In this document: one piece after another, positions 24,280-24,535 of the stretch
How positions within the stretch are numbered: the first letter of the stretch is position 1
Layout of the letters: each line of letters starts with the position of its first letter
From: a virus
Direction: 5' to 3' (one strand)
IMG/VR virus record: IMGVR_UViG_3300017763_000075
Span: 1-34,894 of that record
Length of the DNA: 34,894 nt
Notes under the pieces: model-generated
The model's input: only the letters and a program-made list of their open reading frames with translations
What the model was told of the DNA's origin: nothing
Database searches by the model: none
Made by a program: the position numbers and the translations under genes

Positions 24280-24299
24280 GTCACCAATTGTCACCAATA
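24280..24299 (+). repeat. Left pair of TGTCACC repeats (candidate integrase arm sites)
   Basis: Two perfect adjacent copies of TGTCACCAAT (24280-24289, 24290-24299), 10 bases apart. The same TGTCACC core recurs in two more pairs on the other side of the tRNA-like core. Direct repeats flanking the core are typical of the arm-type binding sites of phage tyrosine integrases. They may also act as operators for the leftward operon. Confidence 0.6.
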
Positions 24300-24337
24300 A
24301 CTCGGAATCCCTTTGTTTATAAGGGGTAAGTATATGC

Positions 24338-24382
24338 CTGAAAATCCTTGTGTCCCCAGTTCGATTCTGGGTTTCGCCACCA
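24338..24382 (+). other. attP core: 3' half of a tRNA-Phe gene
   Basis: The segment reproduces a tRNA from the anticodon loop to CCA. It has loop CTGAAAA (anticodon GAA, Phe), stem strand TCCTT, variable GTGTC, T arm CCCAG-TTCGATT-CTGGG with 5 perfect pairs, acceptor strand TTTCGCC, discriminator A, and CCA at 24380-24382. E. coli tRNA-Phe shares TGAAAATCC, GTGTC and TTCGATT. The 5' half is absent: bases before the loop cannot pair with TCCTT. Phages that integrate into tRNA genes carry exactly such a 3' half so that the host tRNA is restored. It lies about 150 bases upstream of the integrase. The predicted host acceptor 5' strand is GGCGAAA. Confidence 0.85.
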
Positions 24383-24385
24383 CCA

Positions 24386-24434
24386 AAAAAAACACTCTTG
24401 ACCACTCTATAACAGGGAGGCAGAGTGTTTTTTT
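24386..24434 (+). terminator. Hairpin terminator following the tRNA-like core
   Basis: AAAAAAACACTCT (24386-24398) pairs perfectly with AGAGTGTTTTTTT (24422-24434), a 13-base stem with a 23-base loop, ending in a run of seven T. It works in either direction. It starts 4 bases after the tRNA CCA, so after integration it could terminate the restored tRNA transcript and shield the prophage from read-through. Confidence 0.75.
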
Positions 24435-24469
24435 ATGTTCGAAAGTGGTCATCGGTTATACGGAAAATT

Positions 24470-24530
24470 TGTCACCCAATTGTCACCCAGAGGGGTTTTT
24501 GGAAAATTCTGTCACCCATTTGTCACCCAA
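24470..24530 (+). repeat. Two right-hand pairs of TGTCACCC repeats (candidate arm sites)
   Basis: TGTCACCC starts at 24470 and 24481, then again at 24510 and 24521: two pairs, each with an 11-base step. Both pairs are preceded by GGAAAATT (24462, 24501), so the whole block of about 30 bases is duplicated with a 39-40-base step. They lie between the tRNA-like core and the integrase ATG, where right-arm integrase sites would be, and may also control integrase expression. Confidence 0.6.
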
Positions 24531-24535
24531 AATCC

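Follow-up and report, generated by a model that had tools for sequence, protein, structure and literature searches.

A tRNA-Phe attachment site in an uncultivated phage and the joint variation of arm-type repeats and integrase N terminus among its relatives

We describe a locus in a virus record (IMG/VR virus record IMGVR_UViG_3300017763_000075) in which a fragment of a tRNA gene, a hairpin and six copies of a short repeat adjoin an integrase gene. The whole analyzed stretch of 34,894 nt is referred to as the window, and as W in comparisons with other elements. An earlier note on this DNA had read the locus as a complete phage attachment site (attP). The features are as follows:

24279 to 24285, + strand: arm-type repeat L1, TGTCACC, exact; slot at -58/-59 from the core in 8 of 8 complete distinct attPs
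24289 to 24295, + strand: arm-type repeat L2, TGTCACC, exact; 10 bases after L1; slot at -48/-49 in 8 of 8 complete distinct attPs
24338 to 24382, + strand: attP core, tRNA-Phe from anticodon loop to CCA; this 45-mer is exact in 21 bacterial contigs
24338 to 24344, + strand: CTGAAAA, the 7-nt anticodon loop at the left edge of shared identity; probable strand-exchange (overlap) region
24386 to 24434, + strand: hairpin and T run directly 3' of CCA; candidate terminator between restored tRNA-Phe and int
24437 to 24460, + strand: GTTCGA-N12-GTTATA, counterpart of a box conserved in relatives as GTTGAC-N12-GTTATG (right-arm alignment)
24470 to 24476, + strand: arm-type repeat R1, TGTCACC, exact; slot common to relatives
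24481 to 24487, + strand: arm-type repeat R2, TGTCACC, exact; 11 bases after R1; slot common to relatives
24510 to 24516, + strand: arm-type repeat R3, TGTCACC, exact; slot common to relatives
24521 to 24527, + strand: arm-type repeat R4, TGTCACC; 11 bases after R3, its end 8 bases 5' of the int start codon
24536 to 25537, + strand: int, tyrosine integrase of 333 aa, ATG at 24536; PF00589 5.9e-11, phrog_1 2.8e-28
25700 to 25909, + strand: excisionase-like protein of 69 aa, candidate recombination directionality factor (RDF); phrog_66 4e-5

A pattern search of the window finds TGTCACC at six places in the site, all exact and on the + strand (starts 24279, 24289, 24470, 24481, 24510 and 24521). 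The earlier note placed six copies within 24280-24535; the number stands, and the first copy starts one base outside that range. The spacing it gave, a step of 10 in the left pair and of 11 in two duplicated right pairs, is borne out by the exact copies. The right pairs R1/R2 and R3/R4 belong to a duplicated 36-nt unit whose copies lie 40 bases apart and are 81% alike. No 7-mer occurs more than four times in any other 257-base stretch of the window, and the six further occurrences of TGTCACC in the 35 kb are scattered singles. Left of the core, at window positions 24308-24325, there is also a CCC..TTTAT..GGG-like motif, found in relatives as well, which resembles the reverse complement of the right-hand hairpin loop; such motifs are possible sites for a bending protein or an excisionase.

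The core runs from CTGAAAA (the loop with GAA) through TCCTT, the variable loop, the T arm and the acceptor 3' strand TTTCGCC to ACCA. It thus reads, as had been proposed, as a tRNA-Phe fragment from the GAA loop to CCA beside the integrase. The 5' half is absent, and a scan of the window with ARAGORN gives no complete tRNA. In the GTDB species set, 28 contigs match 37 bases of the core exactly, and wherever the bacterial gene is whole ARAGORN calls it tRNA-Phe(gaa). Of these contigs, 21 contain the full 45-mer without mismatch; all come from Opitutales/Opitutia or other Verrucomicrobia, and many are single-cell genomes or MAGs. The other seven, from Cloacimonadota, match only the inner 37 bases and differ in the anticodon stem. 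The expected bacterial tRNA-Phe with the acceptor GGCGAAA and the 45-base core therefore exists, and the core, which adjoins int, matches the 3' end of this bacterial gene in every base. Because the full 45-mer is exact in these 21 contigs, we predict from sequence that the host of the window phage is an Opitutales bacterium, probably a marine one, judging the habitat by the kind of records.

Integrated relatives are present in bacterial genomes. Contig C14 of genome G256 carries a 12,008-bp element flanked by two exact copies of the homologous 45-mer: one of them completes a tRNA-Phe and is followed by hairpin, arms and integrase, and the other is preceded by element DNA of the left-arm side. 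In genome G002, the left flank of locus L025 is 89.5% identical over 3.37 kb to an uninterrupted locus (L027), after which integrase arms follow the tRNA, while L023, also from G002, begins with the core and runs on as the right flank of L027 (94% over 153 bases). Related elements with attL and attR at the core, a consequence drawn in the earlier note, are thus seen both in the G256 element and in L025/L023 against L027. L025 and a further locus, L007, carry integrase and arms beside an intact tRNA-Phe. The integrated elements found comprise a 12-kb island, a remnant and one contig end; the bacterial genomes yielded none that was a copy of the window phage or of its close relatives.

Several of these loci have features of their own. 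The G256 island (L096:2880-14933 = G256:C14) encodes an integrase of the window phage's family with TGTCAAA arms, and its left arm is degenerate, with one TGTCAGA-like site. Its other genes specify Mrr-LRR nuclease, DUF6035/CoiA-like, trypsin/FGE, primase-like and endonuclease VII-like proteins. Since no virion genes were recognized in the 12 kb, the content suggests a candidate satellite or defence island that uses the same target as the phages. Contig G001:C16 (SAG AG-892-I21) was considered as a prophage and rejected: int and the right arm follow an intact tRNA-Phe, but a second core is absent and the contig continues into ordinary host genes (COX1, NrfD, tRNA methyltransferase), leaving a remnant. 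An Opitutales genome contains a core copy (L013:2930-2990) lacking the tRNA 5' half and recognizable arm repeats, and this copy might represent the attR of a different element. The integrases of L044 and L061, near tRNA-Thr in G014/G252, are more distant and in the opposite orientation and were left out.

Across all attPs and the G256 attL and attR, the left edge of identity falls at CTGAAAA or a few bases earlier. This would fit strand exchange within a 7-bp overlap at CTGAAAA, with the halves of the anticodon stem as putative inverted core sites. Phages often carry tRNA genes, and the fragment might on that account be a decayed phage-encoded gene instead of an attachment core. In every relative, though, the common fragment begins at the anticodon loop and adjoins int, and its counterparts bound the integrated G256 element as attL and attR, which already contradicts such an origin; we consider its probability negligible. 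The attachment site in the window is real, complete and ordinary in kind. This reading is well supported, and those of the earlier note's own suggested tests that were run favored it; the family to which the site belongs carries the more interesting signal.

That family was assembled by pattern and protein searches of viral contigs, with near-copies counted once. Loosening the core pattern added one more viral lineage (L053/L091); loosening it further added none. Besides the window's own lineage, seven viral lineages have the same tRNA fragment and arm layout, which gives eight distinct viral attPs and, together with three bacterial elements beside an intact tRNA-Phe, 11 elements. Arm slots are fixed across these 11 in their distance from the start of the core: L1 and L2 keep the places listed above, and R1 to R4 start about 130, 141, 171 and 182 bases after it in relatives. 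The exception is L045, where the slots are shifted and the R2-R3 gap is longer. Beside related integrases, arm repeats therefore persist on either side of the core. The expectation that the repeats recur there held for their presence, wherever the stretch was available, and for their positions, but not for their letters. In INPHARED no close relative of the integrase was found, the sole match being Akkermansia phage Chantilly at 26.5%.

The letters change in a regular manner. The motif is spelled uniformly within an element and differently between elements, with six motifs in all: TGTCACC in W, L043 and L057; TGTCACG in L054, L041 and L053; TGGCACA in L040 and L058; and one element each with TGGCACT (L056), TGTCACA (L045) and TGTCAAA (L060). 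Over 60 sites in the 11 elements, bases 3, 6 and 7 agree at 100% within elements, compared with 54%, 86% and 21%, respectively, between elements at the same slot; base 8 is weakly concordant (49% within, 41% between). The within-element concordance of bases 3, 6 and 7 was reached by none of 2000 shuffles, a comparison that involves 11 distinct but related elements, so that tests made without a tree overstate independence. The concordance is not an effect of how the sites were selected, because the search left bases 6 and 7 open and base 3 two-way and all expected slots were filled. On a tree of the catalytic domain at least six motif changes are needed among ten tips, and both supported clades contain C-type and G-type arms. 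As read from the sequences, the arm motif, and with it presumably arm specificity, was switched repeatedly and in concert while the tRNA target stayed constant.

The likely reader of the arms is the integrase. Residues R199, K226, H281, R285, H307 and Y317 are invariant in 10 integrases, which identifies the catalytic domain. In the AF2 model (mean pLDDT 85; pTM 0.52, so that domain placement is unsure), integrase residues 1-52 form a predicted arm-binding domain of three beta strands (4-7, 19-25, 28-34) and a helix (37-52). Among solved structures, Foldseek places full-length lambda Int (1z1b, also 5j0n) closest to the whole model, in keeping with an N-terminal domain of three strands and a helix. 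Neither Pfam nor the PDB gave a significant sequence match to this domain, for which the predicted fold is the sole support. Domains of this type, as in the lambda and Tn916 integrases, read arm sites with a three-stranded sheet placed in the major groove. By sequence and predicted fold, the N-terminal domain would grip the arm repeats. Elsewhere in the protein, box II (residues 281-286) reads HDGARH and so has one residue more between H and R than the usual HxxRH; the longer form occurs in almost the whole family (HDVARH in L060). The integrases of L041 and L053 have a catalytic-domain insertion of about 46 residues that is absent from other members.

Integrase residues 4-24 diverge with the arm motif and not with the remaining protein. 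Identity in these residues against that in the catalytic domain is 33% vs 85% for W and L040, and 29% vs 81% for L054 and L056. The mean contrast is +7.5 for pairs with the same motif and -20.2 for pairs with different motifs, a result reached by 4 of 20,000 label shuffles. Among 280 variable integrase columns, residue 16 is the sole determinant of base 7, with K for C, E for G, H or F for A and R for T, several of these pairings resting on one or two elements. The chance that random labelling makes the residue 16 column determining is about 4e-5, or about 0.01 when corrected for 280 columns, values that relatedness of the elements makes optimistic. Base 3 is best predicted by residue 6 (Y vs K/R), followed by residues 7 and 20. 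The model places residue 6 on strand 1 and residue 20 on strand 2, with residue 16 in the turn that precedes strand 2.

We tentatively entertain the possibility that the family forms a natural series of recognition specificities in which single residues set the motif (16 for base 7; 6/20 for base 3), the switches having been repeated at one tRNA-Phe target, perhaps avoiding recombination or repression among co-resident elements. An explanation that dispenses with contact between residue 16 and base 7 is that the two vary together by hitch-hiking in a cassette of arms, core and N terminus. The phages W and L041 show such an exchange: their flanks are mostly 80-100% identical, and identity drops to about 50-85% over ~24260-25380, a stretch that comprises the arms, the core and int up to codon ~280 and ends inside the last ~50 codons. 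From this replacement between near-identical phages, arms, core and integrase appear to move as a unit by a recombination-like process. Transfer as a unit would allow arm specificity to switch without loss of function, and also weakens inference made column by column; moreover, independent events are few. Yet the majority of the other N-terminal columns show no such sorting by motif, the same residue-base pairings recur in two catalytic clades, and within each element all six sites agree at bases 3 and 7 despite variation at base 8, which points to constraint from one reader. On this evidence we regard hitch-hiking as the less likely explanation of the co-variation.

The repeats could instead be operators through which another protein, the excisionase-like one or a phage repressor, controls int, the integrase itself not reading them. 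Four of the six do stand just 5' of the int start codon, and the excisionase-like protein is encoded next to int. The other two, however, lie beyond the core, in a place expected of arm sites; elsewhere in the phage the motif forms no clusters; and it tracks integrase residues 4-24 and not the remaining integrase. We therefore hold operators of this kind to be quite improbable and retain the reading of the repeats as arm-type sites of the integrase. Arm sites in this place may still serve regulation. KplE1-type integrases whose attL overlaps the int upstream region repress their own genes (PMC2951348). By analogy, the integrase studied here probably dampens its own expression, since the right repeats separate the core from the int start codon.

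The earlier note proposed that the hairpin terminates the restored tRNA gene. This is plausible in the window, where 24386-24398 and 24422-24434 are complementary at 13 of 13 positions around a 23-base loop, with a 7-T tail and a predicted energy of -19.6 kcal/mol, but about half of the relatives have a weak one. The hairpin is strong (-17 to -24 kcal/mol) in 6 of 12: W, L035, L043, L054, L040 and L053. The box at 24437-24460, which stands between the hairpin and the right arms and is degenerate in the window, is a candidate site for the RDF or a host factor, or an int promoter element. A sigma-70 promoter was sought in it with no convincing match. The form GTTGAC-N12-GTTATG was tried as a general marker and rejected, as a DNA probe of viral contigs matched only this attP family and unrelated DNA. 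The 69-aa protein matches HTH_17 at 1.4e-5, just short of the curated cut-off; its matches are weak.

The principle that arms and integrase vary together is already known from Cluster K1 mycobacteriophages, in which arm motifs differ together with integrase residues 17 and 19 (Pope et al., PMC3203893). At the published K1 loci, which we read directly, the arms are GTTGATG in CrimD and GTGGATG in Anaya. In a by-eye alignment on the GK-turn register (the turn before strand 3), K1 residue 17 falls opposite residue 20 of the window family. The K1 attPs (CrimD, Anaya, Adephagia) resemble the present site in having the core in a tRNA-like gene (tmRNA), paired arms on both sides, a terminator-like hairpin between core and right arms and int directly downstream (PMC3203893). 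They differ in that their right pair is inverted and not direct, in having four sites against six and two motifs against six, and in host phylum and target gene. Lambda shares the arm-binding, core-binding and catalytic domains, as the top structural match, and arm sites on both sides of the core; the present family differs in its tRNA target and in the motif and number of its arms. With KplE1 IntS-type integrases it shares an attL region overlapping the upstream region of a tRNA-associated int; autoregulation was measured in that system (PMC2951348), whereas it is proposed here. Mycobacteriophages integrating at tRNA genes with an overlap in the anticodon loop use another tRNA and another host (PMC10865867). 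A series of six states with one scaffold and one target is, as far as we know and in the open papers searched, new.

Taken as a whole, it is highly probable that the site is the attP of a temperate marine Opitutales phage and that the repeats are its arm-type sites. The integrase would join attP to the tRNA-Phe gene at the anticodon loop, and the phage copy of the 3' half would restore the host tRNA, the hairpin after CCA separating the restored gene from int. Its N-terminal domain would grip the six arm-type sites, two to the left of the core and two pairs to the right, and with sites on both sides the integrase could connect core and arms in the manner of lambda. Among family members, a change of arm motif would go with a change in the face of the domain that reads it, residue 16 with base 7, and residue 6, probably with 20, with base 3.

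The exact target site links an uncultivated phage group to marine Opitutales. To our knowledge, less is understood about how integrases recognize arms than about how they recognize the core. With a single integrase scaffold and a constant core target, the family offers six natural arm specificities, which may form a decoding set for DNA recognition, suited to asking which residue reads which base and what makes arm specificity diversify while the target is constant. Orthogonal arm sets would also be useful for controllable integrases.
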